Assembly: GCA_951394045.1 (NCBI GenBank) | Contig: OX595996.1 | Location: forward strand, 1,426,001-1,490,000 | Direction of reading: 5' to 3' | DNA from: Nitzschia sp. DOCU1 | Taxonomy: Eukaryota > Bacillariophyta > Bacillariophyceae > Bacillariales > Bacillariaceae | Length of the DNA stretch: 64,000 bases | Made by a program: the position numbers and the translations under genes | Shown here: piece after piece, positions 28,825-47,095 of the stretch | Numbering within the stretch: the first letter of the stretch is position 1 | Layout: the number at the start of each line of letters is the position of its first letter | Notes under the pieces: model-generated | Seen by the model: only the letters and a program-made list of their open reading frames with translations | The model's database searches: none | Told to the model about the DNA's origin: nothing

Positions 28825-29077
28825 CACTAACGCACGCGGGTGGTGGCAAAGGCGAGGGCGTCCTACTGGTATAGTACAGGACTGCATCACTAACGCACGC
28901 GGGGCAGTGGCAAAGGCAAGGGCGTCCTACTGGCATAGTACAGGACTGCATCACTAACGCGTGCGGGCGGCGGCAAAGGCGAGGGCGTCCTATTGTCATA
29001 GTACAGGACTGCTTCACTAACGCACGCGGGTGGCGGCAAAGACAAGGGCGTCCTACTGGCATAGTACAGAACTGCAA
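28825..29077. repeat. Minisatellite, four 63-64 bp units
   Basis: The units start at 28825, 28888, 28952 and 29015 with 'cactaacgc' and contain 'ggcaaaggc', 'agggcgtcctactgg' and 'tagtacaggactgc'. The ~55 bp to the left (about 28768-28824) plus one unit also match 49231-49370, inside the 5' end of the gene at 47.8-49.5 kb. The minus-strand frame over the array (RTPSPLPPPACVSEVHAYRQ) parallels that gene's RTPSPLLPPP...RVSEVYTYRH. Confidence 0.85.
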
Positions 29078-29155
29078 GATCTGAAGATTTTGGTACTAGA
29101 GGGTCGTCTTGGAAAAACTTATATTGTTGGCATACTAATCGACAAATACATCCTC

Positions 29156-29545
29156 ATGGAGCCAGTCATAATTTCGATCATGACAAAAACTAGAAGCCAA
29201 ACAAAACGCCAAACCTCCTATCTAAGCAAAGGGAAACGTAAACAATACATCCCTAAAAAGTGCATTTATCCAACTGTATCAGATTGTACCCAGTTATACA
29301 AAAATGCTGCAAATGAGGTGGGCGGAAGTGATATCAATGTTGCTGATAGCAAGTTTATTTTACAAGGACTTAAATTACTGGATGATAAACAAAGCAAAGA
29401 TGGGAGGAGAGCTCGGGCAGTAAATAAGCTCAATTTGAAAGAAAAACTGATTCAAATTGGTAATCCCTCTTTTGACTGGAAATCTTTGTTGAAGTATTTC
29501 ATCAAACCAGAGTTATTCAAGAAGAAGTGGCTTCCTTGGAAATAA
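29156..29545 (+). CDS. Small basic hypothetical protein
   Basis: The protein has 129 residues from the ATG at 29156 (MEPVIISIMTKTRSQTKRQ), with another ATG at 29180. It is Lys/Arg-rich with KGKRKQYIPKK, then a helical 'SKFILQGLKLLDDKQSKDGRRARAVNKLNLKEK' stretch, ending KKWLPWK. Codon texture fits the AT-rich surroundings. No family was recognised. The basic N-terminus would suit a nucleic-acid-binding role, which is inference only. It begins just after the minisatellite and runs opposite to its neighbours. Confidence 0.4.
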   Translation: MEPVIISIMTKTRSQTKRQTSYLSKGKRKQYIPKKCIYPTVSDCTQLYKNAANEVGGSDINVADSKFILQGLKLLDDKQSKDGRRARAVNKLNLKEKLIQIGNPSFDWKSLLKYFIKPELFKKKWLPWK

Positions 29546-30002
29546 TGTGGGATTCTGCCTCTTTTGAAAGGAGTTACCCTAGTCCGTTTGAATAAGAATT
29601 AAGTCGTTCAAAATACCATTATAGCACTTGAGGTTGCTCATTCATGAAATGCAATAGGTAGAGTTAGAAAGTTTGCTTGTTCAAAAAAAAGAATCACACA
29701 TTTTAGCTTTCATGTATTAACCTTGTTATATCGCAACGTTTCTTAGGGGACAAGAAAAGTTAATCAAGAATATGAGAGCTAAAGACCAATGCCCTCAAAT
29801 TTTGAACCAGATTTGTCCTTTACTACCGCACAAAGTCAGGTTGCTAGTATTAGCTCAGGGGCATAACTATGGCTTGGCAACAATGGCCTTTTGCTGTAGG
29901 CCTGAAAGAAAAACAGTTGACAATAGTATAGTCTTGTAGATGAATATCCTATCGAATGAATTTGGCTATATTAGGTAAGATATATGGAGTCAAGCATAGG
30001 TA

Positions 30003-31205
30003 TTAAACCAGATCACCACCATTGTCATTGCTTTCATCATCATCGTCGTCATCATCATTAGCATTGACATTGTTGTTGTGGTTGTTGTTATTACCATCAA
30101 CTTGTATTTGGCGTCTTTGATTGTGTGCAGAAGGGGTGTATCCAATGCGTAGGGAAGAGAAAGCCTCGGATAGAATTAGCTCATCACCTGCAGAGGGATA
30201 AAGATATGATAAACGAACTGTAACATCAGTGTTCACCACTTTTTCCTTTTCATTTGCAGCATCAGCAACTTCTCCAAGTTTGAACCATCCAACAATAGTC
30301 CAGCCTCCATGGTTGTTAATGTATTGCACCATGTCAGATATTTTGGAACGGTGTGTTCTTTTGACAGCAAGCATTTCATCGTCAATTTCAAAGATTGAGA
30401 CGTAATCATCAAAATTGTGGAAGAAGATTTTTGTAGTCTGAAGAGATCGAAAGCCACTGGTGGTGTAGGAATTACCGAATCCAAATTTGGGCGGAATGGG
30501 AAACTCAATATCAAAGGAATAGACGAAAGCTTTGTCTGGTCCATTGTGCAAGCAGGTACACTCACCCCGAGGTTTTTGCCTATCACATTGCATACCACTG
30601 CATGAAACATCAAATGGCATTGTTGGACGGTGAAGATGAATACTTTGATTCTTTAAGACAAAATAATTTGTCTCGGCAGGCACAGTAGGCAGACGCATCT
30701 TGGAAGAAGTACTTCTCGTAGACTCTTCCGTGAGCTTGAGAGGAATTAGGGTACGATCCTTGAAATTAACAATAGGAAGAGTTTTTCCAATGCTTTGCGT
30801 TGTTAGGTTTGGTTCAAACAGATAGAAATCTTTGCCAACAAATGTTGTTCCATGTAAATGTCGCAGAAGATTTGTTGTTTCTTGAACATTTTGTGTCATT
30901 ATGGCACAACAGTGAGGCGGATTAGATAGATCGGCACAAAGGAAGAAACGATTATAGCTCTTCACTGTTTGAGTTGTTTTCATTCTTTTGTTGCCAGTAG
31001 TTGCGTAATTGTTGATAGTTGCATTTCTGCTGCTTCCACCCATTGTGCAGGACAGAATCTTCAGATGCAATACCTTATCCTCTAGTGCATTTGCATGATC
31101 TCTGTTCTGAAAATACACAAGAGGCACAATTTTTGTCTGAGGGCTAAGCACTTCTCCAGGTCCCTCCTCTGGAACTAAATTCAAATCTACGAAAGATGTT
31201 GCCAT
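30003..31205 (-). CDS. Accessory protein with possible OB-fold and Cys cluster
   Basis: The protein has 400 residues from the ATG at 31205 (MATSFVDLNLVPEEGPGEVL). The N-terminal half alternates beta-type segments ('KVLHLKILSC', 'FFLCADLSNPPHCCAIM', 'GKDFYLFEPNL', 'GKTLPIVNF'), an arrangement that could be an OB fold. In the middle, C-x4-C-x8-C-x-C (CSGMQC...CTC) resembles a zinc ribbon. The tail is Asn-rich, then Asp-rich (NNNNHNNN...DDDDDDD). Plant Helitrons carry RPA70-like accessory proteins that combine OB folds and a C4 zinc ribbon. This gene lies 3.2 kb beyond the Rep-helicase stop on the same strand. The RPA comparison is an inference from arrangement, not from a clear sequence match. 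Confidence 0.5.
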   Translation of the reverse strand: MATSFVDLNLVPEEGPGEVLSPQTKIVPLVYFQNRDHANALEDKVLHLKILSCTMGGSSRNATINNYATTGNKRMKTTQTVKSYNRFFLCADLSNPPHCCAIMTQNVQETTNLLRHLHGTTFVGKDFYLFEPNLTTQSIGKTLPIVNFKDRTLIPLKLTEESTRSTSSKMRLPTVPAETNYFVLKNQSIHLHRPTMPFDVSCSGMQCDRQKPRGECTCLHNGPDKAFVYSFDIEFPIPPKFGFGNSYTTSGFRSLQTTKIFFHNFDDYVSIFEIDDEMLAVKRTHRSKISDMVQYINNHGGWTIVGWFKLGEVADAANEKEKVVNTDVTVRLSYLYPSAGDELILSEAFSSLRIGYTPSAHNQRRQIQVDGNNNNHNNNVNANDDDDDDDESNDNGGDLV

Positions 31206-31908
31206 TGTTCTGTATTGCAAATTATGACAGCTGCAGTAACAACTTTGTCAGCATGATATGGGCAAAGATTACGAGAAAAAATGTCTTTATTGCATTTGAA
31301 TTCAAGGTATAATCTGCTTAATCATCAGCCGCATTGTGGCTGTTGCGTTCTTGTGGCTGCAGATCAGAATGATAGATATCAATGACCCACATTGTGTGGA
31401 AGAGCTTTGGCAAAGTTGTTGGCAAGTTGTTGCAGTCGTGGTTGCTTCTGTTATGTTGACAGTTTGATTTCTTGATTTGTATTAGTCGATTTGTTCTGTA
31501 GAATTCTCAAATCCATGTTATGGAACGTAATGATTGTGGTAGGAGAGAAGGGCTAGGGATTGCCTCAGAGTGCATGGCATTAGTCGTTTCTTGAAGAACA
31601 CGTGGCTAAAAAGAAGGGAGCGTTAAAGAGCAGGAAGGAGGAAAGGGGGAGTCTCCAGGTCGCAGTATAGGACTCGTTTCTGCAGGAGTTTGTTTTAGAC
31701 CTCTCCGCATCCTTTGCTGTTGCGAAGTATGCATATGCTTCTTACTGCACCATTTTGCTTTGGATTCCAACCGTGTGCAGTGACCTTGAGTTTTGAATGG
31801 CAGCTTCCGTAGTAATAACAAGGCATCTGGCTAATGAGGTATTCCCATATTAAGAATTGTAATTATGTATATTCATCAAGTTATAAATATTAGTATATAT
31901 TGCACTGT
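31206..31908. other. AT-rich spacer, no gene seen
   Basis: It contains only one short non-ATG frame on the minus strand (31821-31606). Nothing is recognised. Confidence 0.4.
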
Positions 31909-32766
31909 TCAATTGTTGATATTCTCACAATAACCCAATTCATTCATTGCAATGGCTGGAAACGGTTCCGAAAAAAGCGCATTCGCTATTTTCTCGTTCA
32001 AGGAATAGAATTGCTTGTGTAAGTGACGGGTTTGGATCATCAGCTTTGTAATTTTGAGTACATCCTCATCAAGAAGAAACCAATCAAGAGCGGAAGGCAC
32101 AGGTGGAGTTTGATCAAAGTCTGGTGGAACAGTGATGAAGTGATCTGAGTTACTACTCGTCATTTGTTCGCCATATGGATTCTGGTAAGGGTGACTCTTT
32201 CGCCAATTATTAAGGAAAGTGGCAACACACTGAGCCATTCGGTTGCACTGATGACTGGTGAAACCCATAGGTTGGAAACAAACAATATAACATTTCTTGT
32301 ATTGAGTTTTGCCCTGTGTAGTTTTGTAAATAGGAACATTATCTTGTTTGGAAACTCTTCTCGGTGCAATCGCAATTACAGGTACTTCTTTCAAAAGGGA
32401 TGATCGTTCCTCATTAGGCTGATCAGTAGAAGTAATTAATTTGATCAAAGGATGAAGGAAAGCTTCATCATTGCCCTGATTAACTTCAATTAGAGCAATA
32501 AGATTTGAAGAAGTCCGGATAACAGAAACTTCTGCACCCAATGACATGAAGTTTTTGGGTACAATGTTCTGACGGAATATTTGTGACCACTGCGTAAAGG
32601 GCACCACCCTGTTATCTTCTGCGGTTGATTTGAATCTTTTGTCAGGAATGGGAGTAACAACGTTACTCTCTACAACAGCAGTATTGCTTTTTGAAGCATC
32701 TTGTGAAAGTCGAGGGTCAAGATGATCCTGGTTATGATCAAAATCAGCCATGATCAAACGTTTCAT
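31909..32766 (-). CDS. Accessory hypothetical protein
   Basis: The protein has 285 residues with an ATG at 32766 (MKRLIMADFDHNQDHLD) and a second Met at 32751. An Asp/Asn-rich N-terminus is followed by a mixed alpha/beta region: 'NFMSLGAEVSVIRTSSNLIALIEV', 'EVPVIAIAPRRVS' and 'KCYIVCFQPMGFTSHQCNRMAQC'. No family was recognised. It belongs to a run of four minus-strand genes with similar AT-rich composition downstream of the Rep-helicase, so I treat it as possible cargo of that element. Confidence 0.5.
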   Translation of the reverse strand: MKRLIMADFDHNQDHLDPRLSQDASKSNTAVVESNVVTPIPDKRFKSTAEDNRVVPFTQWSQIFRQNIVPKNFMSLGAEVSVIRTSSNLIALIEVNQGNDEAFLHPLIKLITSTDQPNEERSSLLKEVPVIAIAPRRVSKQDNVPIYKTTQGKTQYKKCYIVCFQPMGFTSHQCNRMAQCVATFLNNWRKSHPYQNPYGEQMTSSNSDHFITVPPDFDQTPPVPSALDWFLLDEDVLKITKLMIQTRHLHKQFYSLNEKIANALFSEPFPAIAMNELGYCENINN

Positions 32767-33115
32767 GATTTCTTTTTATGACCTGAAGGAAATGGTATGC
32801 TATGAGTGGTGTTTTCTTATCTGATGACTTTCTACATTGAAAGAAAAACAAATTTTTAGGACTTTAGTTTCAGGTGAAACTATACAACATCATCATAAAA
32901 ATGCTCCTAACTTAGCTTTGCTATACTGAACACAAATTTATGTCACTGCTTACGCTATAGAACTGAACAGGCATAGAACTATATTGTTATCTAGTTTTTG
33001 CCACAGCGCTTTTTTCCACTCAGTGGAAAAAAGACGCTTTCATTAGTTTCATGCCAAGAATCTAATCACTTTCAGAAAATGTTCATTTCAATTATTTGGA
33101 TACAACATTTATGCT

Positions 33116-33862
33116 TTAGTAGTATTTTGGGGGTACTAACATGTTTTCGTCTTTTTTTGAGCTGCGTTCAATAAACTTGAGAACTCTAGGGGTATTTCTG
33201 TTGGCAGAATGGACTTCATTTCCTTGTTCATTACAAGCTTTCTTTGTGTTCTTGATTAGCGTGGTATCAACATCAATTGATCTTCTTTTAGTATTGGCTG
33301 GGCAATCAGGAGGTTGACCGTCTTGATGGTTGAAAGAAGGCATGGAATAGCTGTGGTCACAACCACTGCAATGGGTTCCTTGAATGTGGAACGTTATGGC
33401 TGGTTGAATGACGTTGGGTTGATGCATAACTGGTAGTACTTGATGATATTTGTGTTCATATATGGATTGATCAATAATATCATCTTCTGTTCTGGAATTT
33501 GTTTTCCTTTCTATTTCTGTACTACAAATGTGTGTTAAAATTCCATGCATGGTCAACTTTGTCTTTCCACAATCAAAGCATCCAAAGCATGGAGCCAATG
33601 ATCCTGTGTTGTTAAGATGCTGGGTTTATGGTCATGTGAGATGTGGTCTCAAAAATATTCGTTGGAGTGGTTAATGACTTACATTGGGACGTCTTGTTTG
33701 GACAAAGATAGTTGTTGGCTCAGCATCTTTGTTCAAACAGACATCATTTGCCCATGAAGTTTCATCAACTACAACTAAGCCATGATAACGCAATTTATCA
33801 TTAATGGCTTTGCTCCTGGCTTTAGCAAGAGTAAACTGCAGTTGATGAATATTGATCGACAT
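33116..33862 (-). CDS. Cys-rich accessory protein (2 exons)
   Basis: The exons 33862-33683 and 33619-33116 are joined across a 63-nt phase 0 intron (GTAAGT...CCCAG), giving 227 residues. The first exon has 'LAKARSKAINDKLRYHGLVVVDETSWAND' and TTIFVQTRRPN. The second begins HLNNTGSLAPCFGCFDCGK and also contains GTHCSGCDHSY and PPDC, so Cys pairs could bind zinc. A Lys/Arg-rich tail follows (KRRSIDVD...KNTKK). No family was recognised. The ATG at 33862 follows a TTACAG acceptor-like site by only a few bases, so an upstream exon is possible. It lies between the Rep-helicase stop and the other accessory genes. Confidence 0.5.
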
Positions 33863-33989
33863 GTCAGGTACTGTAATTTTATGGCAATGAGATATATGGG
33901 ATGGTGGAATGCTCAAGAAAAGGACTCACGAATGTGATGAATTATTGAAATCAATGGAGCAAGGGCGCATCGATGGCGCTGGTTTGGAA

Positions 33990-34175
33990 CGAAAAAGGTG
34001 CGGCAAGACCCGCTTTCTTGGAAGAAAGCAAGGGTTGCTACTACCTTACCAAAGAACAAGGGGGGTTCATCTTCGCTACTACTACCTGCGTCGTCATGAT
34101 GCTATGTGACTGCCTGTAGTACAGTCAGATAGTGTGTACGACCCCGTCGATCCATTCCTAGGAGAGGGTGGGTTG
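33990..34175 (-). pseudogene. Fragment copied from the gene at 45.3-45.8 kb
   Basis: About 185 bp match 45405-45575 at high identity in the same orientation, including 'ctaccttaccaaagaacaag' and 'gtgtgtacgaccccgtcgat'. On the minus strand the peptide matches LLGMDRRGRTHY and DDAGSSSEDE of that gene, but an in-frame TAG follows the QAVT segment. It is a dead fragment lying between the Rep-helicase stop and the Cys-rich gene. Confidence 0.75.
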
Positions 34176-34456
34176 TTGTCGTTGTACCAGGAGGTGCTGC
34201 AACAACTTCCACAAGAAACAATCTACCCATGAGCTCCCGCCTATGATTGTCATTAGTTCCTTCACGAACCTTTACTAATCAGTCAGATGTTCAACTTGTT
34301 GCCTCATGATTATGTGGCACGTTCCTTGGCTACCACGCTACTTGCAAGATAAGCAATGAAAACTTGCGTAAGATAATGTTGACAAAGTTGTTACTGAGCT
34401 ATATTAGAATAATTTGAATGAACAATTCTCTTTTATATTATTTGTATGTATAATGG

Positions 34457-37400
34457 TTATTGTGTCGTGTTAATGTGACCACAACGTATCACTCGAAGGA
34501 ACGTTCGTCTGGTGCGATTCCATTCTTCTGCCATTTCATGGCCAATATGAAGTAGTGCTTCTGCATCTAATGGTTGTTGGCGCCGTCCTCTGGAGCGTGC
34601 TCTCAATTTCCAAATACTCTCAAATGTCTGTCTATTTCTTTTGCTTGTAAACCCAATCACAAATGCATAGACGGCCCATGGTTGAAGAAATCGTTGCTTT
34701 GTCACAGCTGAACCGCCATCTCCGCTGTTATGTTGAGTTAACCGATGACGAATATTTTTGGTCTCACCAATGTACATCACGTTAATATCCCTTGTGGAAA
34801 TCAACTCATAAACAACACCATGATTTTCTGGTGGTAATTGAGCATCACAAGGGCGGAACATGCAAGGGTTTTGGAGGATTGGTAGACTGTCATTTTCACT
34901 GGTAAGTTGAGACAAAAGCTGACGAATGTAAGGTAGAAATCGATTTGTTCTTTGGAGCACTTGCAATAAATGTTCTGACACTTCAGATGGATCTCCAACA
35001 AAGTAAATATCTTTTGCTTTTCGCGTTCGACTCAACAGTACCACTACTTGCGCAGCTTCCCAAAGATTGTAGTCATATCCATCATCTTTATTTGTAACCT
35101 GAGTGACAACGGAAGATAAGGTTGAACCCATACTGGAATGAATAGTAGCAGCAATTCTGGGTTTCAATCCATATTGTGTTCGTCTGGCTTGGACACCTCG
35201 GAATACAGTTTCGTTTTGTGATGTTGTGTAAGAAACTTGGACTTTTTTCCAGCCTCTTTCGGTTAGACCATTTTCATTGAAAAAATCCATCGGAGGAAAA
35301 TCCTTACATCCAGGAGGTCCTGCCCAGACACTTATAGGTTCCTTGCTGTGAATGCGCTCCTCTTCCAATTCCAATAAAATAGCCAATTGACCCTGTTGGA
35401 AGTTCCTATCATTGTGGCAAAATTCAAAGCGTGCATTTTTGTAAAAAACAAGCTGTTTTTTTCTTTTCTGCTGTCTTGAAAGCTTTCGAACAATTGGAAG
35501 AGCAGCTGGGTGCCAATTTCCACCTGTGGTTGACTCTTCGTCTGTTGCTAGAGATATGACAAGAGGAATTGACATGCGGCGAAGCTGCTCAAGCATTTGC
35601 TTTTCCACTTGAAGACAGGGTTCGTGTCTACCAAAAATGAATACTGCATCTTCTGGGATTCGCGAATCAACCAAACTTGATAGAAACATGCAGCTTGTAG
35701 AAAGAAGAAATGAGAATCGATCAATATCTTCAAGGGACCAGGATATATTTCTGGTTAACGAACAAATTTCTCGAAGTGCAGCACAGTTTGCTGCTCGTAC
35801 TGATTCAACAAGCTCATGAAATTTGAATTCAGCAATCATGTTGATGGACATCATGATTGGCGTTCCCTGCCAAGGCATGAGTTGCAATATATCCATTGAA
35901 GAAATTATGAGCATTCCTCCCATAAAGACTCCACTGTGCTTGATATATCTTGCAATAATGTCAAGGGTTGCCAAGAGTTCAGCATACATCAACCCCAACT
36001 CATCAATATACAAATAATCCAAACATTGCCAAAAGAAGAGAAGTTGTGGATTCCAATATATAGCTGCCAAAGCATTTTCGGCCATTCTTCCTGGTGTTAG
36101 ATTTCCACCAGATGCTTTCATGGAAGCCAGGCGATGAACGTGAAGACCGCCAAGCTGTTTTGCACGATCTGCAACAATGCTGGTGGAAACACCATTCAGT
36201 CCTTTACACATAGCGTAAAGTGATGCCATTTCGCATACCGTTGTTTTTCCAGTTCCTGGACCACCAACAACAACAACATTCTTGTGATTTTTAGTGGGAT
36301 CAATGTATGCATCCATTTCTTTCTTCATTGCCAATAAAGTTTGTTTCTGCTCCTGATAGGATGCAACGTTCTGATCAAAAGAGGGAGGAGGAGGATAAAA
36401 ACTGGTAGTATCGATACTCATAGGAAATTGTCTTGCATGGAGAATTGCTTCCTTGTCTGGCAAAATGTTGCTGAGGCCACAAGCAACAAGATCGTTCCAA
36501 AGAACATCAATGAACAAACGTCGCTGCTCTATTTGAAATCTTTGGGTTGTTGACATAGCTTCCTCCACCATATGAGTGTGTAAAACAGATGGAAGTGGTG
36601 GTGTTTCAACCAAATCATTTGCCAGTAACACTTCTTTCAATGTAGAGTATGCCAAGCATAAATTCCGGTCAAATTGGAAAGTTGATCCGGGTTGAATGGA
36701 GAGAAATTCCCGCACGTACCGGCTGGTTAGGTTTAGAAGTGATGTTTCTCCTTGAACTGGATCAAATAAGCCTGCGTGGATAAAGGCAGAACGTAGGTTC
36801 CCAGTTAGCATCAGTTCATATTCTGTTTCAAAGCTGCCCATTGCCAGAAGAAGGTGAACCATAAAACGGTTTCTGTTTTTGGGATAGACAGGAGTGTGCC
36901 AGATGATTGGTAAAGCTTCACTTGACTTTTCTGAAAGAAATCTTTTTTCGATATCCTTGAAATCTTTTTGTGCTCGTAAAAGTGCAGGAAGACGGATTGA
37001 CACAGTCCTTGTAACAAAAATATTGTATAAGCGCTGAATTTTCAACAAAAGGGCAAGCGTTTCCTGTTTTCGAACATTGCTTCCAAAATGAGAAGCATTT
37101 GCTTTTTGTGCGTAGAACAGAACTTCCCCAATTGCTCCCCTTCGAAGTCTTAATTTTGTATTAAAACCATCAAGCCATTCACTTTCTTCAAGGCGACCTT
37201 TGATATGAGTCTTCACGTATTGCAAAGAAGATTGTGGGTCAAATAAGGGCGTCACAGTTTGCCGCTCAAACCAACGCAAATAGTACTTTTGCTGCCGTAT
37301 AAAACGTAATTCAGGAGGACGCATGCTGAAATATGTGGTCACATCAGTTGAAAGTGGTGCACGCAATTCATCCTGAATTACAGTGAGTTGGAAAGTGGTG

Positions 37401-40400
37401 AATAACCTTGAAGCTGGAAAGCTTGGTATTTCAGCCCGAGCAGTTTGTCCTGTTACTGCCATCATGGCCTGTATGTCATGGGGACGTCTTCCGGACCCCA
37501 TTACACGGTTAAAAACAGCAGCACGATATTCCCGAGCACAAGTTGGCATACGGATGAATTGGATTGTACTTGTTACCAGTGAATCACCTTGAATAACTGT
37601 GAGACACTCCATTTGTGTCAGAGCCCGTCCATGACCATGACGAGTTTTGTTTTTTGTTTTTTCTGCAAGTCTCTTCCAAGAGGTAATCTTAGTGTTGTGG
37701 AGTGCCGTGTATTCCCCGTTCACATTCAGGCTTCCAGGAGTAATACCTTCTGATTCATCTCTTAGAGGAGTTGGAGGTGTCAATCTTACAATTGCGACTT
37801 CATCCAATTCAGAAACATATTTTGCCAAGTATGCAGAAACACTGTACCCTGTAGTGAATTGCAAGTTTTGAGCACTTGGAAAACAAATGAAAAGTTTTCC
37901 ATTAGTAGGAGAAAATTTGGAATCAGTGTTTGCACTTCGAGGAATGTGTCGTTCTGCTTGTAGCAGTTTTTCAGTCATTGCATTGCCATCCATCATCGAT
38001 AAAAGTCGCAGCACTTCACAGCATTCTTTAGAGTGCTGAACTGGCAATGGTTGAATGGAATGATTTTGGGGTTGATCTGTCAGCCAAAAATTGCTGGGCA
38101 CCTTACAAACAAAATGAGTTTCTCCATTGCTGTCTATACGTGGCACCTGACACCTATCATGACATTGATGGGCAAGAAACTTCTCTGCATCCCACAAAAT
38201 TTCTTGAAGCTGCAAAGAAGAGGATATGAAACCTTCTTCCTTAAGCTGGGCAATTTCATTGTAGTGTATTAGATCTGCCAAACAGCCTCGTATTTTGTAT
38301 AGAACAGCCTTCAGTCCTTCTGGAGTAGTGATATCCATTTTTGTGCGAAGGATAGCGTGAATATGGCTTGGATTTCCTTGTTTTTCTTGGAATTCGTGAC
38401 GCCACCATGCCCATTCAATTTCATGCAAAGGCGCTTCCACAGAATATACAATATATTTCATCCATAGAGTGCTTACGTCATTCCAGCTCCTTAGGACGTA
38501 TGGGGCTGCTGACTCACGCAAAAGAAAACGGGCTTCGTCCATAGTGACACCATACTTTCTGGAAACTTCTTCAAGGGCTATACTGGATGTTGTCCATTCT
38601 CTGAGAACTCGTAATCCCCGGCATGTCTTTTGGTTGCATGATTGAGTAAAAAAATAGTGGGGAGGCCTGTGTCCAATGAGAGCAGATAGTTTGTGAACAT
38701 TGGTGGCATTTTCTGAAGAATCTCCATACAGTTCACCATTCTCATTGCTCTGAAATGCAATGCCATCTTGTCCTTGCCGGTCTGCAAATCCACGGTGAAG
38801 AATTAATCTGCTGTCATTGCCACGGAGCCCCAGGTTTACCAAGATATCAAATGTCAAGAATTGATAACGAGGATCCGTACTGCATAGGAGCGAAGGGTCC
38901 AAAATACGATTTCGTCCATGTTGTCGCATGGAAGCTATACCATACTTAGCCAATGTTTTTTCGTCAGTCCACAAAGCAGTTGGTAAAGCTCCAAGAATGG
39001 ATCCATCACCAGTATGGAAATAAAAAATATCTGGAAATAGTAAGCCTTCTGCATACACCAAAGGAACAGTCTGTCCTTTAGATCTTGATACAATTCTTTC
39101 GTAGAAGTTTGAATTTTTTTTTCTCATTCGAAGCTTTGTGTTCCTTCTGATAAGTAGATGACCTTGCATGTTTAAGAGCACGTGTAGAGGAGAAGAAATA
39201 ACATCAGTAGGTCCATGTAAATGTACACCCATTGGTTGGCGAGCAGTATTGGTTGTGGGAATCATCTCATTGCTGTCGTTAGAGCCAAAACTGTCATCAT
39301 CATTGTATTCTTCACCATATAGATCAGTAGCAAGTTCATGAGCCTCAATTGGTCCATAAGCTGCATAATTTATGTCCTGCCTGGTGCAGTTGCCCATGAT
39401 GATATCACTGTCATGAAGAATTTCTTGTTCTTCACCAATGATACAATCATTTTCTGAAATAAAAACCAGTTTACTGGAGTGATTTTGTTCCTTCACCATT
39501 TCTTCCCAATGTTCCTTACAGATTTGGATTCGACAATTCTTTTCAGGACAAATATAGAGAGGAATATTGGTGCAAACCATTTCCTCATCTCTGTCAAGCA
39601 AGTTTTTGATTACACAAGAAGCCTCATCACGCACTGGTTTGTTGAAATATGCATTAGTGACCAATGCAACCTTGTGTCTACCACAATAACATATACTTTG
39701 CCCCCCTAAACACTTCAAATAGCGGCGGCGAAGTTCTTCTTGTCGATCTCCACTTTGTCGGCAATATATTGCAACTTGAAGATTTTCCAAATCAGTTGGT
39801 AGTACTGTGGTTCGTCCAAATTGAGCCAAGCTGCCTGGTTGACACCACCATGCTTGTCCTGAATGACGAGCAAAAATAGATACTTCAGCACTGTCCATTA
39901 AGGATGGGAGTCCATCAGATCCAGCTTCAAGAACACCAAACACCAAAGCACGGATCTCCCAGAAAGGATTTTCAGTCAAGATAGTGGAGGGTCTGACAAC
40001 TATAACAATGTTACTTTCACATTGTCCTTCCATTTCCCATTCTCTGTGCATAACTTTGATGCCATCAATTGAATGAAAAAGATTCAACAGCTGGCTCACA
40101 TATGAATCTCCAAATAATTCCAACTTTTCAATGGCTTTGTGTCGAGGTGTCTCAGGATAGAATATTTTCTTGTGTTTTTGCCCGTGTCCTCTCCCTGGAA
40201 GTTTCAGACTTTCCGCAGCCAAAACCAGCCACCAACCAAACCACATCTGGTTATCTTTAACATTGTTCACAAGCACAGACCAAAACTCATCAACCACTGT
40301 CATAATACCAAGGAGAAGAAACCCAACAAAACTCTTCGTTGGGTCAGATATTCGGACAAATCGTTCTCCAAAACCATCATACGGATGAATCCGTAACTGG

Positions 40401-41677
40401 CGACATGGCCAAGGTGGATCAAAAAGAATTTCTTCACTAGCTCCATGTTCATCGAAAACCAATAATACTTGCGATTTTGCTTCATATGACTGTTCTTGAA
40501 GCTCAATAGAATCCAAAAGATTGACATAAGTTGAAGCTCTCAATTCCTTTCTATCAGGCAGATCGATGAATGAATTTTCTGCTACCATCAACTTGCGATC
40601 AATAATATTGGCGGGAACATAGGCCATGTCATATGGATTCTTACTCAATTGTCGAACATATTCACGGATATCACTTCTTCCTTTTATCGATAAAGAATCT
40701 CGTAGCAAAGCCAAAGCATTCCCATGATGAAGGTTCCCCCTGTTTATAATGTAGGATGAATCAATACCATCATAACCACCCTGTAAAACTCCAGTTTGGT
40801 ATGTATCAGAAAAATTGTGTAGCTTGGTTTCTCGTAAAGTCCGGCTCCTGCACACAGCTGGGGATAGTTGATTAGAGTTGTTGGTAAACAAAGTGCCAGT
40901 ACTTGTTGAAGGTGGAAAGACATATCTCTCTTTGGATTGAATTGTATGGTTCCTGCATGATAAAATTTGAGCCCCTTCTTCACCAATGCAAATAGTGGGT
41001 TGACACAAAAATTTGTCATTTTCCAGAATACAAACTGAGCTTGGAAAATCAGGCCGAATACAATCTGTCCACTTCCTTGAATTTGCCGTTCCAGATTGAT
41101 AGCAGTCAAAAATCCAGTTGCTGTAACTGAAAAAAAAATCTTCCAATGGTAGTTTATTGCATTTGTGGAGAAACTCGCTACAGCCCCAAGGACATCTAAC
41201 TTCAGGATAAGCTAAATGGCTATCCATTTGTTTCGCCAGTTCCATCCACCGTAGTTCCAAAATGGTTTGTTGAAATGCATTTGCTTCTAAAGTCATGTCC
41301 GAGAATAGAGGTGGTGGGTTATGCATAGAAATGGGGCTTTCATGAAGAACAATAGCCGATGATAACCACCATTCCCGCCATTTAGCAGGGATTAAAGACC
41401 AGCGATCACTGAGGGATGTAGATTGAAGACAATCAAATTTACTTCCATGAGAAAGGAAAGCCCAAACCATTGATGGCCAGTACTCCTTTGGATGAGGTTT
41501 TCCGGTACTCAACAAATAGCGCTCACAGTTGGCACATAGTGATATTACTGTAGCGGGTCCATCAATTACAGGTAGTTGACAATATTTCTTGCCACGCTTT
41601 CGTTTCAGAATATCTGATGAATGGACAAAAAGGGGCACTTGATGCCGTCTGCAATTGCAACAATGCTCGTTTGTCAT
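34457..41677 (-). CDS. Helitron-like Rep/Pif1-type helicase with C-terminal GIY-YIG nuclease
   Basis: This is a single frame of 2406 residues from the ATG at 41677. The upstream open stretch has no ATG and carries a TATACAG acceptor, so another exon is possible. It starts with Cys pairs (CCNC...CANC). A Rep region follows: PHYFFTQSCNQ, EFQEKQGNPSHIHAIL (~1100, the HUH site) and SAYLAKYVSELDE (~1280, two Tyr spaced Y-x3-Y as in Helitron Rep). The helicase is SF1, Pif1/RecD-like: Walker A GGPGTGKTT (~1805), YIDELG (~1888), LQLMPW, ATIHSSMGSTL (~2179) and VVLLSRTRKA (~2216). The C-terminus is a GIY-YIG nuclease: VVYELI...VMYIGETKNIRHRLTQH (~2286) and catalytic Glu in FESIWK. It should nick, unwind and mobilise DNA as a single-stranded intermediate. 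The added nuclease is unusual. All catalytic residues looked for are present, so the gene may be active. Confidence 0.85.
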   Translation of the reverse strand: MTNEHCCNCRRHQVPLFVHSSDILKRKRGKKYCQLPVIDGPATVISLCANCERYLLSTGKPHPKEYWPSMVWAFLSHGSKFDCLQSTSLSDRWSLIPAKWREWWLSSAIVLHESPISMHNPPPLFSDMTLEANAFQQTILELRWMELAKQMDSHLAYPEVRCPWGCSEFLHKCNKLPLEDFFFSYSNWIFDCYQSGTANSRKWTDCIRPDFPSSVCILENDKFLCQPTICIGEEGAQILSCRNHTIQSKERYVFPPSTSTGTLFTNNSNQLSPAVCRSRTLRETKLHNFSDTYQTGVLQGGYDGIDSSYIINRGNLHHGNALALLRDSLSIKGRSDIREYVRQLSKNPYDMAYVPANIIDRKLMVAENSFIDLPDRKELRASTYVNLLDSIELQEQSYEAKSQVLLVFDEHGASEEILFDPPWPCRQLRIHPYDGFGERFVRISDPTKSFVGFLLLGIMTVVDEFWSVLVNNVKDNQMWFGWWLVLAAESLKLPGRGHGQKHKKIFYPETPRHKAIEKLELFGDSYVSQLLNLFHSIDGIKVMHREWEMEGQCESNIVIVVRPSTILTENPFWEIRALVFGVLEAGSDGLPSLMDSAEVSIFARHSGQAWWCQPGSLAQFGRTTVLPTDLENLQVAIYCRQSGDRQEELRRRYLKCLGGQSICYCGRHKVALVTNAYFNKPVRDEASCVIKNLLDRDEEMVCTNIPLYICPEKNCRIQICKEHWEEMVKEQNHSSKLVFISENDCIIGEEQEILHDSDIIMGNCTRQDINYAAYGPIEAHELATDLYGEEYNDDDSFGSNDSNEMIPTTNTARQPMGVHLHGPTDVISSPLHVLLNMQGHLLIRRNTKLRMRKKNSNFYERIVSRSKGQTVPLVYAEGLLFPDIFYFHTGDGSILGALPTALWTDEKTLAKYGIASMRQHGRNRILDPSLLCSTDPRYQFLTFDILVNLGLRGNDSRLILHRGFADRQGQDGIAFQSNENGELYGDSSENATNVHKLSALIGHRPPHYFFTQSCNQKTCRGLRVLREWTTSSIALEEVSRKYGVTMDEARFLLRESAAPYVLRSWNDVSTLWMKYIVYSVEAPLHEIEWAWWRHEFQEKQGNPSHIHAILRTKMDITTPEGLKAVLYKIRGCLADLIHYNEIAQLKEEGFISSSLQLQEILWDAEKFLAHQCHDRCQVPRIDSNGETHFVCKVPSNFWLTDQPQNHSIQPLPVQHSKECCEVLRLLSMMDGNAMTEKLLQAERHIPRSANTDSKFSPTNGKLFICFPSAQNLQFTTGYSVSAYLAKYVSELDEVAIVRLTPPTPLRDESEGITPGSLNVNGEYTALHNTKITSWKRLAEKTKNKTRHGHGRALTQMECLTVIQGDSLVTSTIQFIRMPTCAREYRAAVFNRVMGSGRRPHDIQAMMAVTGQTARAEIPSFPASRLFTTFQLTVIQDELRAPLSTDVTTYFSMRPPELRFIRQQKYYLRWFERQTVTPLFDPQSSLQYVKTHIKGRLEESEWLDGFNTKLRLRRGAIGEVLFYAQKANASHFGSNVRKQETLALLLKIQRLYNIFVTRTVSIRLPALLRAQKDFKDIEKRFLSEKSSEALPIIWHTPVYPKNRNRFMVHLLLAMGSFETEYELMLTGNLRSAFIHAGLFDPVQGETSLLNLTSRYVREFLSIQPGSTFQFDRNLCLAYSTLKEVLLANDLVETPPLPSVLHTHMVEEAMSTTQRFQIEQRRLFIDVLWNDLVACGLSNILPDKEAILHARQFPMSIDTTSFYPPPPSFDQNVASYQEQKQTLLAMKKEMDAYIDPTKNHKNVVVVGGPGTGKTTVCEMASLYAMCKGLNGVSTSIVADRAKQLGGLHVHRLASMKASGGNLTPGRMAENALAAIYWNPQLLFFWQCLDYLYIDELGLMYAELLATLDIIARYIKHSGVFMGGMLIISSMDILQLMPWQGTPIMMSINMIAEFKFHELVESVRAANCAALREICSLTRNISWSLEDIDRFSFLLSTSCMFLSSLVDSRIPEDAVFIFGRHEPCLQVEKQMLEQLRRMSIPLVISLATDEESTTGGNWHPAALPIVRKLSRQQKRKKQLVFYKNARFEFCHNDRNFQQGQLAILLELEEERIHSKEPISVWAGPPGCKDFPPMDFFNENGLTERGWKKVQVSYTTSQNETVFRGVQARRTQYGLKPRIAATIHSSMGSTLSSVVTQVTNKDDGYDYNLWEAAQVVVLLSRTRKAKDIYFVGDPSEVSEHLLQVLQRTNRFLPYIRQLLSQLTSENDSLPILQNPCMFRPCDAQLPPENHGVVYELISTRDINVMYIGETKNIRHRLTQHNSGDGGSAVTKQRFLQPWAVYAFVIGFTSKRNRQTFESIWKLRARSRGRRQQPLDAEALLHIGHEMAEEWNRTRRTFLRVIRCGHINTTQ

Positions 41678-41895
41678 AGTTTCACTTTGCAATTTGTGAG
41701 CATCACCAGAACAACTCACTGTATAAAATACCACTTGAGAAAAAAGCAATTATTATGGAAACTAATTTGAGCTAATTACAATGGCGTTGGTACTACACAC
41801 TTAGATAATTTCTACTTAGAGCCATATCAAAATCGACCACCAAATATTATAATCATTCATAAAATCATGTGCTAACTCCGAGCACTATTATGGTA

Positions 41896-42144
41896 TTACA
41901 CTACAAACGAATAGACACTAAACGCCTGACGGCAAAGAGGGCACGTGGGGCATTTCCTCCGCCACGTATCCAAACAGCACCTATGAAACTCATGCACACA
42001 ACAATCAGGATTCACTATGACCTGCGCAATACAGTCCATTTGCTCATAACAAATTGAGCACTCTTGGTAGTCCAATGGCTCAACATATAGTAGCTCTGCT
42101 TTTGTCCCACTCTTGCGCACTTCTTCTTTTTCCACAACGGTCAT
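41896..42144 (-). CDS. RING-H2 finger protein
   Basis: The protein has 82 residues with an ATG at 42144. Almost all of it is one RING-H2 domain: CSICYEQM, then CCVHEFHRCCLDTW, then CPTCPLCRQAF, with Cys and His spacing as in E3 ubiquitin ligases. There is no membrane segment or substrate domain. It lies about 220 bp upstream of the Rep-helicase start on the same strand. It is a likely small E3 or zinc-binding adaptor. The family is clear, the target unknown. Confidence 0.8.
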   Translation of the reverse strand: MTVVEKEEVRKSGTKAELLYVEPLDYQECSICYEQMDCIAQVIVNPDCCVHEFHRCCLDTWRRKCPTCPLCRQAFSVYSFVV

Positions 42145-42406
42145 CCTATCAATTTTTGGCTGCCAAAAACAATGTAAGCCCCATGGCTTGCATGTCGAAT
42201 GTATGCCTTGTTAAACGCAACAATTCTAGATTTATTCCTTGGATGCTATTACGTCACTCACAGCCGATAATGTGCTCATGGAGTTCTTCTCACATGCTTG
42301 CACCTTCCCGGAAACCTAACTGATGGCAATAATGAAAAAACAGTGCTCACCAATTTTCACGTTAGCAACAATGCAACAACAGTGCTCACCAATCTGACAT
42401 GACAAA

Positions 42407-42844
42407 TTACACATGGTCCTCTAAGATCAAGTCAAAAGCTTTTTTACAGGCTGGGCAGTTTGAATGTCCCCTGTTCCACCACATATTGAACCAGGTATCA
42501 AAACAACCTTGGTGAAACTCATGCTCGCACACGTCTAGTTGAACAACAGTGTTTACCAGTCTGCAGTGACAAATTGAGCATGGTGCTCTGATTGTAGTAG
42601 CCAATTCTGCAGCAACCAATTGCTCATGTAAAATAAAGTCGAATGCTTGATTACAGACTGGGCAGATTGAACGTCCCTGGTTCCACCACATACGGAACCA
42701 AGTACCGAAACAATGCTGATGAAACTCATGCTCACAGTTATCCAATTGAACAACAGTGTTTACCAATCTGCAGTTACAAATTGCACATGGTGCTCTGGTT
42801 GTGGTAGATAATTGAATTACTGTAGAGTCTTGGTGTGCATCCAT
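42407..42844 (-). CDS. Tandem double RING-H2 protein
   Basis: The protein has 145 residues with an ATG at 42844. It consists of two RING-H2 domains of about 65 residues that are near copies: CAICNCRLVNTVVQLDNCEH with ICPVCNQAFD, and CSICHCRLVNTVVQLDVCEH with NCPACKKAFD. Both have WFxMWWNxG between the metal-binding halves and end with a similar F-D-x-I-L tail. The duplicated unit is also visible in the DNA, so it arose by recent internal duplication. All zinc ligands are kept in both. It would be an E3-like or zinc-bridge protein. The repeated Trp pair is an unusual detail. Confidence 0.8.
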   Translation of the reverse strand: MDAHQDSTVIQLSTTTRAPCAICNCRLVNTVVQLDNCEHEFHQHCFGTWFRMWWNQGRSICPVCNQAFDFILHEQLVAAELATTIRAPCSICHCRLVNTVVQLDVCEHEFHQGCFDTWFNMWWNRGHSNCPACKKAFDLILEDHV

Positions 42845-43173
42845 CTTTCAAAGTTATGACCGATCCAGCTTTCCTCATGATAACGGCAAGGGTGAATTGA
42901 AGATTGTGTCACTCTCCTGTACTACGGTTTTCATGTAAGATGCATGATTACTACCTAGCACGCTATTACGCCATTCTCTGTTATCAACAGCAGATAATGT
43001 CATCACCACAGAGCTCTTTGTTTCTCGCATGCTCATACATTCCCAGTTACATTGTTCATATCAGGACTAAATCTCTTTGTGGATTGCTAATAGCTCCACG
43101 TAGCTAGTTGCTCATCATCCAAAATACATAAGACTGTTTCACAATTGTGAAAATACAGTATTAAATATTTTCT

Positions 43174-43734
43174 TTAAAAAGAGTACCAATCGCTATTGGT
43201 GGAAGTTTGTGACTGTTCATCATCAGATGATTCACTTGTTAGCATGTCATTGTAACTCATACAAGGATCATAGGGAGAAGATTCCAATGGAGAATCATCA
43301 TCAAGAATAGAATGGACATCATCGTCTTCTGGTCTTTCCAATGAATGATTCATGGCAAAACTATATTGAGTGGGGAAGTAGGATCTTCCTCGTACATCCG
43401 AACGTGTACCAGACAGTAGTTGATTTTGAGTGCGACTTTGGATAATTTGTCTGCCTGCGTAGGGGTGAACACGTATACTGGTAACAGGGAGCAGAGGGGG
43501 CATGTCATCATCAGTATCATCATCTGAATCAGACTCAAGATATAGCTGTCCATTAGTAAGCCTATGAAGAGGAGAATAGTCCTCATCCACTTCACTACGA
43601 CCAAGAGGATCTCCATACTCAACAGCATCACCTAGCAAATCCTCGTAGTAATTGCGTAGCATTTCTCTGATATTTGAAAGGGATGCCAGGTCATCATTAC
43701 ATTCTTTCACAGGGTAGACAGTGTTGGTCAACAT
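43174..43734 (-). CDS. Acidic hypothetical protein
   Basis: The protein has 186 residues with an ATG at 43734 (MLTNTVYPVKECNDD). It is very rich in Asp, Glu and Ser (ESDSDDDTDDDMPPLLPV, SILDDDSPLESSPYD, ESSDDEQSQTSTNSDWYSF). There are no hydrophobic helices, Cys or known motif. The C-terminal Ser/Asp clusters resemble casein kinase 2 sites. It is of similar style to the product at 45.3 kb. It lies within the RING cluster. Its function is unknown. Confidence 0.5.
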   Translation of the reverse strand: MLTNTVYPVKECNDDLASLSNIREMLRNYYEDLLGDAVEYGDPLGRSEVDEDYSPLHRLTNGQLYLESDSDDDTDDDMPPLLPVTSIRVHPYAGRQIIQSRTQNQLLSGTRSDVRGRSYFPTQYSFAMNHSLERPEDDDVHSILDDDSPLESSPYDPCMSYNDMLTSESSDDEQSQTSTNSDWYSF

Positions 43735-44107
43735 GGTATCATTGTGTTGAGCAGGTAAAATAATGATCCAAATCAGAGGATTGGTAGCAATTGGCTCTTT
43801 AAATCATTAGCCAAATAATTTACCATTTCAGCCCATTAGGGTTTTTGGAGCGCACAAGGCCGTGCATACCTTCTATGTGTCAAAAGAATAAGCGAGCGCA
43901 GAAGCGGTGGCAAAAAAAGCAGAAGTGGCGACAATGCGACTGAATTAAAACGTGGAAACTGGCAGCAGGGCATGCTGGGATAATTGTTGAGTTAATGAAA
44001 ACGTGTACAGATTCACGTGTCGCAGAAAATGTAGATTAGTACGCTCTTTCCCCAGAGGCAACACTAATGTTCACAAGAGTTGAAGCAGAGCACATAAATA
44101 TGGAAAC

Positions 44108-44323
44108 ATGAATGCGGAACAAGATCACCCTGCAATCAATTTGACTGGAATTTATAAACCGTGTCCGATCTGCCATGTCAGAATGACGCAAGACGACATT
44201 GTTCAACCTGACACTTGCAGACATGATTTTCATCATGAATGCTTGCGGCTTTGGCAAATGAGGCACCCTAACTGCCCCGTGTGTCATGAGGAATTCAACT
44301 ACATTTGCTTTGTAGTCGACTAA
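44108..44323 (+). CDS. Single RING-H2 finger protein
   Basis: The protein has 71 residues with an ATG at 44108 (MNAEQDHPAINLTGIYK). The RING-H2 is CPICHVRMTQDD, TCRHDFHHECLRLW and NCPVCHEEF, with complete ligands. It resembles the two neighbouring RING genes in size and style but is on the opposite strand and has no Trp pair insertion. Confidence 0.8.
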   Translation: MNAEQDHPAINLTGIYKPCPICHVRMTQDDIVQPDTCRHDFHHECLRLWQMRHPNCPVCHEEFNYICFVVD

Positions 44324-44596
44324 ACAAACTACTAGGACCTATATTGATACACACTTCAACTCGTGTGATGTATTGTTACATTATTACTATGATATAGTGG
44401 GACAAGTCATGAAACTCAGCTGCCTTTCTAGGTAGCCATGATTGCTTGGGCGATTTGGCAAGATTGTTCGCCAATCGTGCAGTTAGCTGCTAAATGGATA
44501 GTGCACTTTTTGCTGCTTTAATAGTAGTAGGATTACTCCTAGCTAGTACGTTTAGTTTAAAAGCGTGTTGATGTGTAATAAATAGATGCTATATAC

Positions 44597-45133
44597 TTAT
44601 GCAGCTGGAGCAGTACATGAAGTAAATACCCCAATGACGGACAATTTGGTAGCAAGAGCTACACTTTTCGGAGTCGACGGCAATTCTGACAAACAATTGT
44701 GGGCCTCATTTATAGCCTGAATCATCTCGTACACATTGCCGCACAATGAACAAAGATGCCCAATGCTATTCAAAATACCAACAAACAATAGGGGATCGCC
44801 CTTTTTATCAAAGTTGTCATATCTACAGTATGCTTCACGTGCCCACCTTAAAACAGCTAGGGCTGTCGAAAGTTGGTTCACTGCTAGATACGATTCACCC
44901 AACCAAAACAACATGTTCGCCAATGTATGTGCATCTTTCTTAGCTATCAGCTTACCTGGTGACATAATCCATTTGTAAACGAGACCACTAGCTACCAAGG
45001 CACGACTAAAGTATTCAATTGCATCTGCGTAAGCTTCCAAACTGTAGTGCGTTCTTCCCGTCCTATAGTATACCCAGTAGAGACTACCAACAGCTCTACT
45101 GCTGCTAGTACTAGCTGCAATACTTTTTGCCAT
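44597..45133 (-). CDS. TPR-like helical repeat protein
   Basis: The protein has 178 residues with an ATG at 45133 (MAKSIAASTSSSRAVG). It has TPR-type helix pairs: 'YYRTGRTHYSLEAYADAIEYFSRALV', 'ANMLFWLGESYLAVNQLSTALAVLRWA' and 'ILNSIGHLCSLCGNVYEMIQAINEA', each with the small-residue and Tyr/Ala positions of a TPR. It is probably a protein-protein scaffold in the cytosol. No fused domain is present. It marks the right part of the AT-rich block. Confidence 0.65.
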   Translation of the reverse strand: MAKSIAASTSSSRAVGSLYWVYYRTGRTHYSLEAYADAIEYFSRALVASGLVYKWIMSPGKLIAKKDAHTLANMLFWLGESYLAVNQLSTALAVLRWAREAYCRYDNFDKKGDPLLFVGILNSIGHLCSLCGNVYEMIQAINEAHNCLSELPSTPKSVALATKLSVIGVFTSCTAPAA

Positions 45134-45280
45134 GATGGCTATTTTATGACCATAGTGTAGTGCTTATATGGCTACTCTAAAGTTAATAATATCAGGGAAG
45201 ATTTGGTAAAATTGGTAGGTTGGATGAAGTTAATTATCGCAATTATCGCAAAAAGCACGCAAATTGATTTAAATGATTAA

Positions 45281-45763
45281 CTAAGTAGAGAATACCGAGT
45301 CATCGTCGCTCGTAAGGAAAATGTCGTCGTAGCATTCCTCGTCGGAAGGCAGCTCATACCCATCGTCCGACTCGGTAGGGTAGTCCTCCCAGTAATCGTG
45401 GTTCGGAGCAAGGGTTGGTACTACCTTACCAAAGAACAAGGGGGATTCGTCTTCGCTACTACTTCCTGCGTCGTCATAATGCTTCGTAACTGCCTGTAGT
45501 ACAGTCGGATAGTGTGTACGACCCCGTCGATCCATTCCTAGTAGAGGGTGGGTTGTTGTCGTAGGGATCGTTGTAGGAATCATCATACCTAGTACTAAAG
45601 GGTGGGTTGTTGTCGTTGATTCTGCATTGTCGCCCTTGCGATTCTTGTCGTCAGGAAAATCTTCGAATGATTCATCATCCGACTCTTCCATTAGTGGAAA
45701 ACCATCGTAGTTTTTGGGAAAATCATCGAATGATTCATCGTCAAGGGTGGAGAGGGAGTTCAT
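45281..45763 (-). CDS. Acidic hypothetical protein, donor of the 34-kb fragment
   Basis: The protein has 160 residues from the ATG at 45763 (MNSLSTLDDESFDDFP). The longer open frame upstream has no ATG. The protein is acidic with DDESFDDFP/DDESFEDFP repeats, a Thr/Pro segment with a duplicated THPLL/THPLV motif, then DRRGRTHYPTVLQAV and a Ser/Asp/Glu tail. A 170-bp part has a broken copy at 33990-34175. No family was recognised. Confidence 0.5.
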   Translation of the reverse strand: MNSLSTLDDESFDDFPKNYDGFPLMEESDDESFEDFPDDKNRKGDNAESTTTTHPLVLGMMIPTTIPTTTTHPLLGMDRRGRTHYPTVLQAVTKHYDDAGSSSEDESPLFFGKVVPTLAPNHDYWEDYPTESDDGYELPSDEECYDDIFLTSDDDSVFST

Positions 45764-45959
45764 TGTTGCAATGGATGAATAGAATGAGCGAGCTAGGATT
45801 GAAAAGCATCCCAACACTGGGCAGCAACGTCTAACCAAAAAAAACTAGATCCGACAAAAAACGTCCGACAAGGCCCGCTTTCCTGAAAGAAAGCACGTTC
45901 GTTCGAGAAAAACTAGATACTTTAAATGTTTAAAGCACATTACCCCTACCCTTCTGCCT

Positions 45960-47095
45960 ACACCTGTTCCCCGCAAAGTCCGCAAGTCTTCCGATGAGAG
46001 GAAGAGTTCCAAGACGTCGAGCAGCAAGGTCGACCGAAGCCCAGTAGTGGGACGGTTTCGAGCAAATCGGACCAAGAAAAGAACAGCTTGCGTCGAGACG
46101 AGTTGACAAACCAGGTTTGTCGGTTGCTACCGATCCTTCTCTTCCCCAAGTCTTCGAATGAGAGTAAGAGTTCCAAGACGGAGCAGCAAGGCCGACCGAA
46201 GGGCTTCGAATGAGAGTAGTAGTAAGACGGTTTCGAGCTAATTCGACCAGGAAAAGAACAGCTTGCGTCGAGACGAGTTGACAGAACCAGGTTTGTCGCT
46301 TGCTACCGATCCTTCTCGCCTGAAGTTCAAGATCCGCCAGATGCTCAAGATCAAATCCAGTGCCATTGCCGCGGCGAACGAATCAAAACTTTCTGCACAA
46401 CTTCGTTACAGGAATTCCAACACCCAAGTCAAAGTTACCGTAACCACCTGTTCCCCGCACAATCCGCAACTCTTCGGATGAGAGTAAGAGTTCCAAGACG
46501 TCAAGCAGCAAGGCCGACCGAAGGACTTCGAATGAGAGTAGCAGTGGGACAGTTTCGAGCAAATCGGACCAGGACAAGAACAGCTTGCGTCGAGACGAGT
46601 TGACAGAACCAGGTTTGTCGCTTGCTACCGATCCTTCTCTTCCGCAAGTCTTCGAATAAGAGTAAGAGTTCCAAGACGTCGAGCAGCAAGGCCGACCGAA
46701 GGGCTTCGAATGAGAGTTGCAGTGGGACGGTTTTGAGCAAATCGGACCAGGACAAGAACAGCTTGCGTCGAGACGAGTTGACAGAACCAGGTTTGTCGCT
46801 TGCTACCGATCCTTCTCGCCTGAAGCTCAAGATCAAATCCAGTGCCGTTGCCGCGGCGAACGAATCAAAACTTTCTGCACAACTTCGTTACAGAAATTCC
46901 AACACTTAGCAGTGGGACGGTTTCGAGCAAATCGGACCAGGAAAAGAACAGCTTGCGTCGAGACGAGTTAACAAAACCACGTTTGTCGGTTGCTACCGAT
47001 TCTTCTCGCCTGAAGTTCAAGATCCGCCAGACGCTCAAGATTAAATCCAGTGCCGTTGCCGCCGTCAACGAATCAAAATTTCTGCAAACACTTCC
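45960..47095 (+). repeat. Array of ~180-bp modules, left group
   Basis: 'gacggtttcgagcaaatcgg' or close variants begin modules near 46049, 46228, 46548, 46726 and 46916. Each continues with 'gaacagcttgcgtcgagacgagtt', then 'ttgctaccgatccttctc'. Two alternative 3' parts follow: one encoding KSSKTSSSKADRR (plus strand), the other 'LKIKSSA-AAxNESK'. The peptide texture (SKSDQDKNSLRRDEL) is coding-like, but stops break every longer frame, so this looks like amplified pieces of a former gene. The same modules recur at 49877-50611. Confidence 0.7.

Follow-up and report, generated by a model that had tools for sequence, protein, structure and literature searches.

A 64,000-nucleotide stretch of contig OX595996.1 of the diatom Nitzschia sp. 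DOCU1 (assembly GCA_951394045.1, positions 1,426,001 to 1,490,000; hereafter the window) encodes on its minus strand a large protein, RepHel-GIY, in which a HUH Rep domain, a Pif1-like superfamily 1 (SF1) helicase and a GIY-YIG nuclease domain are joined in one reading frame (34457-41677). In our view this gene likely encodes the transposase of an autonomous Helitron-like (rolling-circle) element, belonging to a deep clade in which the transposase acquired a GIY-YIG nuclease of SLX1 type. An initial annotation, made from the sequence alone, had described the frame as a Helitron-type Rep-helicase with a C-terminal GIY-YIG nuclease, based on a HUH signature, a Y-x3-Y motif, SF1 Pif1-like helicase motifs and a GIY-YIG active site. 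Each of these features was recovered in the alignments and profiles presented here, and, as far as domains and family are concerned, the description as a whole is supported. The domains, the conservation of their active-site residues and their co-inheritance were observed or computed directly in a family of 64 proteins.

Reading frame and domain layout

The minus-strand frame is open for 2430 codons, from 41749 to 34457, and its codon 25 is the first ATG (41677), which gives the 2406 codons of the initial annotation, stop codon counted. Residue numbers used here follow the 2430-codon frame and not the ATG start. The chance of a random open frame of this length at the given base composition is approximately 5e-67, and in full-length relatives the first Cys-rich motif is found at a similar distance from the start as in the window protein. 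The protein begins with a Cys-rich N-terminal region (residues 25-860, 39170-41677) which gave no Pfam match and contains no recognised domain; a profile of this region matches 52 of the 64 family members, and the 12 without a match are all proteins of 1340-1885 aa. This is followed on the same strand by the Rep domain (residues 1012-1325, 37775-38716), the helicase (residues 1815-2260, 34970-36307) and the nuclease domain (residues 2311-2386, 34592-34819).

A family with a conserved three-domain order

Searching with the part of the protein from Rep to its end returned 20 proteins, and searching with P0020, a distant member, returned 46, two of which had already been found. After removal of duplicates and of P0002, a slightly changed version of the window's own protein, 63 further relatives remained, so that the family including the window protein has 64 members. 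Domain profiles made from the first 20 proteins, 18 of which carry a precomputed GIY-YIG assignment, match Rep in 64/64, helicase in 62/64 and GIY-YIG in 59/64 proteins. Among those lacking a GIY-YIG match, P0019, P0021, P0086 and P0099 terminate within the helicase or upstream of it. The fifth, P0102, is a Helentron of the conventional type and carries a different endonuclease. In every one of the 59 proteins that match all three profiles, among them P0101, the order is Rep, helicase, GIY-YIG, and the GIY match begins 35-98 positions past the helicase match (median 44). Since the three domains share one frame at this spacing in 59/59 cases, the nuclease is, judging from the sequences, hardly a separate gene.

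Active-site residues of the nuclease are retained almost throughout. The first Tyr of GIY-YIG is present in 57 of 59 proteins, P0005 having Ser and P0101 Phe at this place. The second Tyr, the YIG Gly, the Arg and the His are each found in 58 of 59 (the exception being P0101), and the catalytic Glu in 58 of 59, P0100 ending before it. Pairwise distances of the helicase and GIY-YIG domains are correlated (r 0.77, 58 proteins; the highest value in 999 permutations was 0.12), as are those of Rep and helicase (r 0.93). A maximum-likelihood tree built quickly from 62 proteins places the window protein with P0003, P0016 and P0018 (SH-aLRT, an approximate likelihood-ratio support, 99%) within a set of 18 (100%); owing to the very long branches of P0101 and P0102, the tree fixes neither the root nor a single origin of the nuclease. 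With dozens of related proteins carrying the same fusion, the sequences suggest that the nuclease probably takes part in the movement of these elements.

These observations bear on the alternative that the GIY-YIG domain is a homing-endonuclease-like passenger without a role in transposition. Many GIY-YIG fusions may reflect the mobility of the domain itself, as pointed out in a review of the superfamily (PMC1564403), yet here the active-site residues are retained down to 27% identity to the window protein (P0100) and the distances co-vary with those of the helicase. The nuclease part also gave no match to a homing enzyme in the PDB under E 0.5, which is weak evidence in the same direction. 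We regard a passenger as quite improbable.

Several relatives deserve individual mention. P0100 is a protein of 1415 aa with the HUH motif at 238-240, the helicase at 855-1014 and GIY-YIG at its end, and apart from the Glu that its sequence does not reach, it keeps the active-site residues. P0101 has a clear Helitron_like_N domain, and its C-terminus is weakly GIY-like (16 bits), with other residues in place of the active-site Tyr, Gly, Arg and His; this domain has either decayed or is a precursor that never had these residues. P0084 carries a Ulp1-type cysteine protease (PF02902) behind GIY-YIG.

Rep and helicase domains

The Rep domain contains the motifs FFTQSCNQ, GNPSHIHAIL and Y-x3-Y in this order, with an H/C cluster before the last. 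Both His residues of the HUH motif (H1129 and H1131) are present in 64/64 aligned proteins, and each Tyr of Y-x3-Y (Y1307 and Y1311) in 62/64. When the Rep domain was compared by hhalign with P0101 and P0102, probabilities of 99.8% and 96.1% were obtained (for P0102 E 3.2e-9 over 199 columns), in contrast to 0.1-0.4% in four control comparisons. Both of these proteins score above the Pfam Helitron_like_N cut-off of 28.9 bits (43.1 bits for P0101, 95.5 bits for P0102). Together, these comparisons link the window Rep to the Helentron-type Rep, to which it appears to be homologous. In addition, when E values up to 1 are allowed, Helitron_like_N matches nine Rep cores out of 12, the best at 5.2e-4.

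The HUH assignment also has weak points. A Pfam comparison proposed in the initial annotation placed GIY-YIG above its cut-off and left Helitron_like_N unmatched in the whole window protein at E up to 1; the window Rep core alone matched Helitron_like_N only at E 0.057, below the curated cut-off. The HUH assignment consequently rests on profiles and relatives. The Rep core profile found chance matches only among PDB sequences (E 0.5 or worse), with Helraiser absent among them. The initial annotation had placed a HUH fold in residues ~950-1350, and Rep was indeed found there by profiles and, weakly, by a fold match.

The helicase is more readily recognised. Walker A (GGPGTGKT), Walker B (DEL) and motifs III, V and VI are conserved in the alignment, and Pif1 proteins are the best PDB matches of this part (E 4e-8), while the family profile gave a weak helicase match to Helraiser (7lcc, E 0.0048). 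A Rep homologous to that of Helitrons, with motifs I-II-III in order and two Tyr, and a Pif1-like SF1 helicase C-terminal to it within one protein are features expected of the Helitron superfamily, and the window protein shows both.

Within the Rep domain, between HUH and Y-x3-Y (37769-38365, residues 1129-1327), the residues of the H/C cluster, H1194, C1196, C1200 and C1215, are present in 60-63 of 64 proteins and perhaps form a putative zinc site.

GIY-YIG nuclease domain

Residues 2311-2386 match Pfam PF01541 at E 4.7e-10 (40.1 bits versus a cut-off of 22.6). When the C-terminal 136 residues alone were compared with the PDB, five SLX1 chains (E 2.6e-6 to 5.6e-4) were the sole matches below E 0.5, the next being endonuclease II at E 0.5. 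The family profile of the nuclease part likewise has SLX1 at the top (E 2e-11), with UPF0213 proteins lower (E 3.4e-6 and 0.0011). Among solved structures, its nearest relative by sequence is SLX1, an enzyme that cuts branched DNA. To our knowledge the PDB contains no Penelope nuclease, and this nearness is to be read as one among solved structures only.

The window nuclease and SLX1 (PDB 4xlg, 6seh, 7cq2) have the same GIY-YIG core residues and share a PW-x-GF-FE-W stretch. No conserved C-terminal Asn was seen in the family consensus, and the superfamily review gives the lack of this residue as a mark of SLX1 (PMC1564403). SLX1 differs in having a RING/PHD domain behind GIY-YIG; no RING/PHD Pfam match was found in the window protein, whose nuclease is fused to a transposase, and the tail behind the GIY match has a median length of six residues in the 59 proteins. 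An NCBIfam scan of the nuclease part gave no match. SLX1 is described as inactive without SLX4 (PMC8287910), so by analogy the GIY-YIG domain may need the remaining protein or a partner for activity.

Comparison with known mobile elements

Helentrons are among the most similar described elements: they have a HUH Rep and a Pif1-like helicase, an endonuclease fused behind the helicase, and companion genes of the RPA type (PMC4067079). Their endonuclease is, however, of the apurinic (AP; Exo_endo_phos) type and not an SLX1-type GIY-YIG, and the Exo_endo_phos family of Pfam was not matched, at E up to 1, by the window protein, which also has a large extra N-terminal region unlike Helentrons. The Rep and helicase of the Helentron P0102 are far diverged, with 10 and 36 bits to the family profiles. 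Canonical Helitrons such as Helraiser share a HUH Rep with two Tyr and an SF1 helicase (PMC5876387), whereas the window protein has in addition the C-terminal nuclease and the N-terminal region. Penelope-like retroelements resemble the window element in bringing GIY-YIG into a eukaryotic transposable element; they differ by a reverse transcriptase, for which the window protein has no match.

The order of helicase and nuclease has its nearest precedents in virus-related elements. Tlr8p of Tetrahymena (1405 aa) has an SF1 helicase followed by GIY-YIG, with region 140-800 called unknown, and 16 Cryptomonas Polinton-like elements encode proteins of about 1000-1400 aa with an SF1 helicase and a C-terminal GIY-YIG (PMC1564403, PMC3671162, PMC12220804). 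The window protein shares this combination, and the layout of P0100 is similar to that of these proteins when set beside their descriptions. Could the window protein then belong to a Polinton-like or Tlr-like virus-related element and not to one of Helitron type? The shared order from helicase to GIY-YIG would fit such an origin, but the Rep domain is homologous to the Helentron Rep, and the descriptions of the Tlr and Cryptomonas proteins, by which alone they were compared, mention no HUH domain. The GIY-YIG of Tlr8p is called I-TevI-like there. Tlr elements and Polintons also encode capsid proteins (PMC4028283), whereas no capsid, protease, packaging ATPase or integrase match was found in 13 scanned open reading frames (ORFs) out of 31 that start with ATG and have at least 60 aa in or beside the low-GC block around the gene. 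Viral contigs gave no relative of the fused protein by sequence search; one alignment search found five loci whose similarity was confined to the helicase; their frames of 410-485 aa matched neither the Rep nor the GIY profile at E up to 1. A virus-related origin in place of a Helitron one seems improbable to us. In prokaryote genome contigs, two peptide patterns found no relatives.

The initial annotation knew of no described GIY-YIG fusion of this kind. In the open-licence literature consulted, without Repbase, we likewise found no Rep-helicase-GIY-YIG fusion of Helitron type, and GIY-YIG is reported there from Penelope elements, Terminons, a Mariner element and mitochondrial introns (PMC3627910, PMC6431247, PMC5718144, PMC12910113, PMC4226871, PMC8504770). 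The SF1 helicase-GIY-YIG pair, which the initial annotation did not mention, is known from the Tlr and Cryptomonas Polinton-like elements. Because of the scope of this literature, we call the Rep-helicase-GIY-YIG clade undescribed only provisionally. Helitron-like elements with a captured nuclease are already known as a kind from the AP endonuclease of Helentrons, and capture of GIY-YIG is provisionally new.

Proposed mechanism

HUH enzymes nick one strand and stay linked to its 5' end. From its conserved residues, the HUH/Y2 Rep of the window protein would act in this way at an element end; the Pif1-like helicase would then peel the nicked strand off, the neighbouring RPA-like protein would coat it, and a circle would form and be re-inserted. 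Helraiser is reported to need a double-stranded donor, to form junctions from one strand and to have circles as intermediates (PMC5876387), which suggests a Rep that cuts and joins single strands, possibly supplied by the helicase. Cutting of one strand by Rep would leave branches where the peeled strand joins the donor and where the incoming strand joins the target, and the GIY-YIG domain, held beside the helicase, could cut branched DNA beyond the reach of Rep alone. Most likely it would cut the opposite strand or a flap, either at the junction with the target or where the peeled strand is rooted. Because Rep would leave such branches and SLX1-SLX4 cuts flaps and junctions (PMC8287910), we give about even chances, by analogy, to the fused nuclease cutting a branch at one of these two joints. 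We infer both the nuclease activity and its substrate, including the cut in the target or second strand that the initial annotation proposed.

A less likely alternative is that GIY-YIG opens the insertion site by nicking the intact target duplex. The Helentron endonuclease occupies the same position in its protein and its authors propose an initial nick for it (PMC4067079), P0102 among the relatives is a Helentron of that kind, and the GIY-YIG of Penelope elements is thought to cut the target (PMC1564403). The nearest solved relatives here, on the other hand, are SLX1 proteins, which are structure-selective nucleases.

The handling of the second strand and of the target by Helitrons is an open question: known HUH enzymes cut and join single strands, yet the donors and circles that Helraiser requires are double-stranded (PMC5876387). 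A clade whose transposase retains a further nuclease, probably a structure-selective one, offers a direct test of which step needs another cut. Alongside the Helentron AP endonuclease, it is also the second instance of nuclease capture at this position, and it may connect Helitrons with Tlr and Polinton-like elements. We can imagine, with more doubt than confidence, a deep Helitron-like clade of microbial eukaryotes with two nuclease chemistries united in a single rolling-circle transposase, a HUH/Y2 strand-transferase and an SLX1-type branch nuclease completing the second strand. The Tlr and Polinton-like proteins that pair an SF1 helicase with GIY-YIG would then be relatives with an overlooked HUH domain (in Tlr8p in region 140-800), which would join Helitrons to virus-like elements.

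Neighbouring genes, base composition and repeats

Downstream of RepHel-GIY on the minus strand, 30003-31205 encodes a 400-aa protein with a CxGxxCDRQ...CxC motif, which models as an RPA1-like single-strand DNA-binding protein. It has 36 homologues besides itself, and its predicted structure (mean predicted local distance difference test, pLDDT, 82.6) gave OB-fold matches; its alignment profile matched PDB sequences at E 0.22 or worse, and no meaningful Pfam family was found, so that the RPA-like assignment comes from the predicted fold. Its alignment, too, found no relatives in viral contigs. Among the longest contigs listed for the 36 homologues, one has a length (11739) equal to that of the contig of a RepHel-GIY relative. 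A 285-aa ORF on the same strand (31909-32766) is a possible further member of the element. These two genes and RepHel-GIY have a GC content at third codon positions of 0.331-0.354, versus 0.477-0.501 in five flanking genes, and the top-scoring low-GC block (29061-45294) would approximate the extent of the element.

We infer this extent, and the mobility of the element, from composition and family. If the gene were instead a domesticated host gene of Helitron origin that is no longer mobile, its single copy within the window and the lack of proven ends would be expected. Its base composition, however, is unlike that of the five flanking genes and common to the RPA-like gene, and some relatives represent large clusters (148 members for P0100, 35 for P0019), which may be copies or merely samples. 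We find a domesticated gene very improbable and retain the transposase of a Helitron-like element as the preferred reading.

A terminus scan of the window (5' TC, 3' hairpin and CTRR) found no ends that paired convincingly. A 156-bp direct repeat (34027-34182 and 45407-45562, 94% identical) has similar hairpins nearby (34012-34029 and about 45879-45896); as candidate ends these were rejected, because the order of hairpin and repeat is reversed between the two places and no consistent element results. Between the RPA-like and RepHel-GIY genes, a 24-bp inverted repeat (31234-31257 and 34373-34396, 92% complementary) encloses 3.1 kb containing the 285-aa ORF and a 144-aa ORF, and is possibly a separate inserted element with terminal inverted repeats.

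Possible cargo lies beside the 5' side of RepHel-GIY, where domain scans identified three RING-H2 ORFs, two on the minus strand (41896-42144 and 42407-42844) and one of 71 aa on the plus strand (44108-44323), as well as a TPR ORF of 178 aa on the minus strand (44597-45133). One of the RING-H2 ORFs contains a tandem duplication (42414-42606 and 42621-42813, 80%). Scans of the window gave no Rfam match at gathering scores and no tRNA. The low-GC block is bordered on its left by four copies of a 63-bp tandem repeat (28824-29076), with related pieces at 49319-49364, and a 1.1-kb stretch occurs twice (46463-47590 and 49975-51103, 99.6% identity) amid related tandem repeats of ~178 bp.
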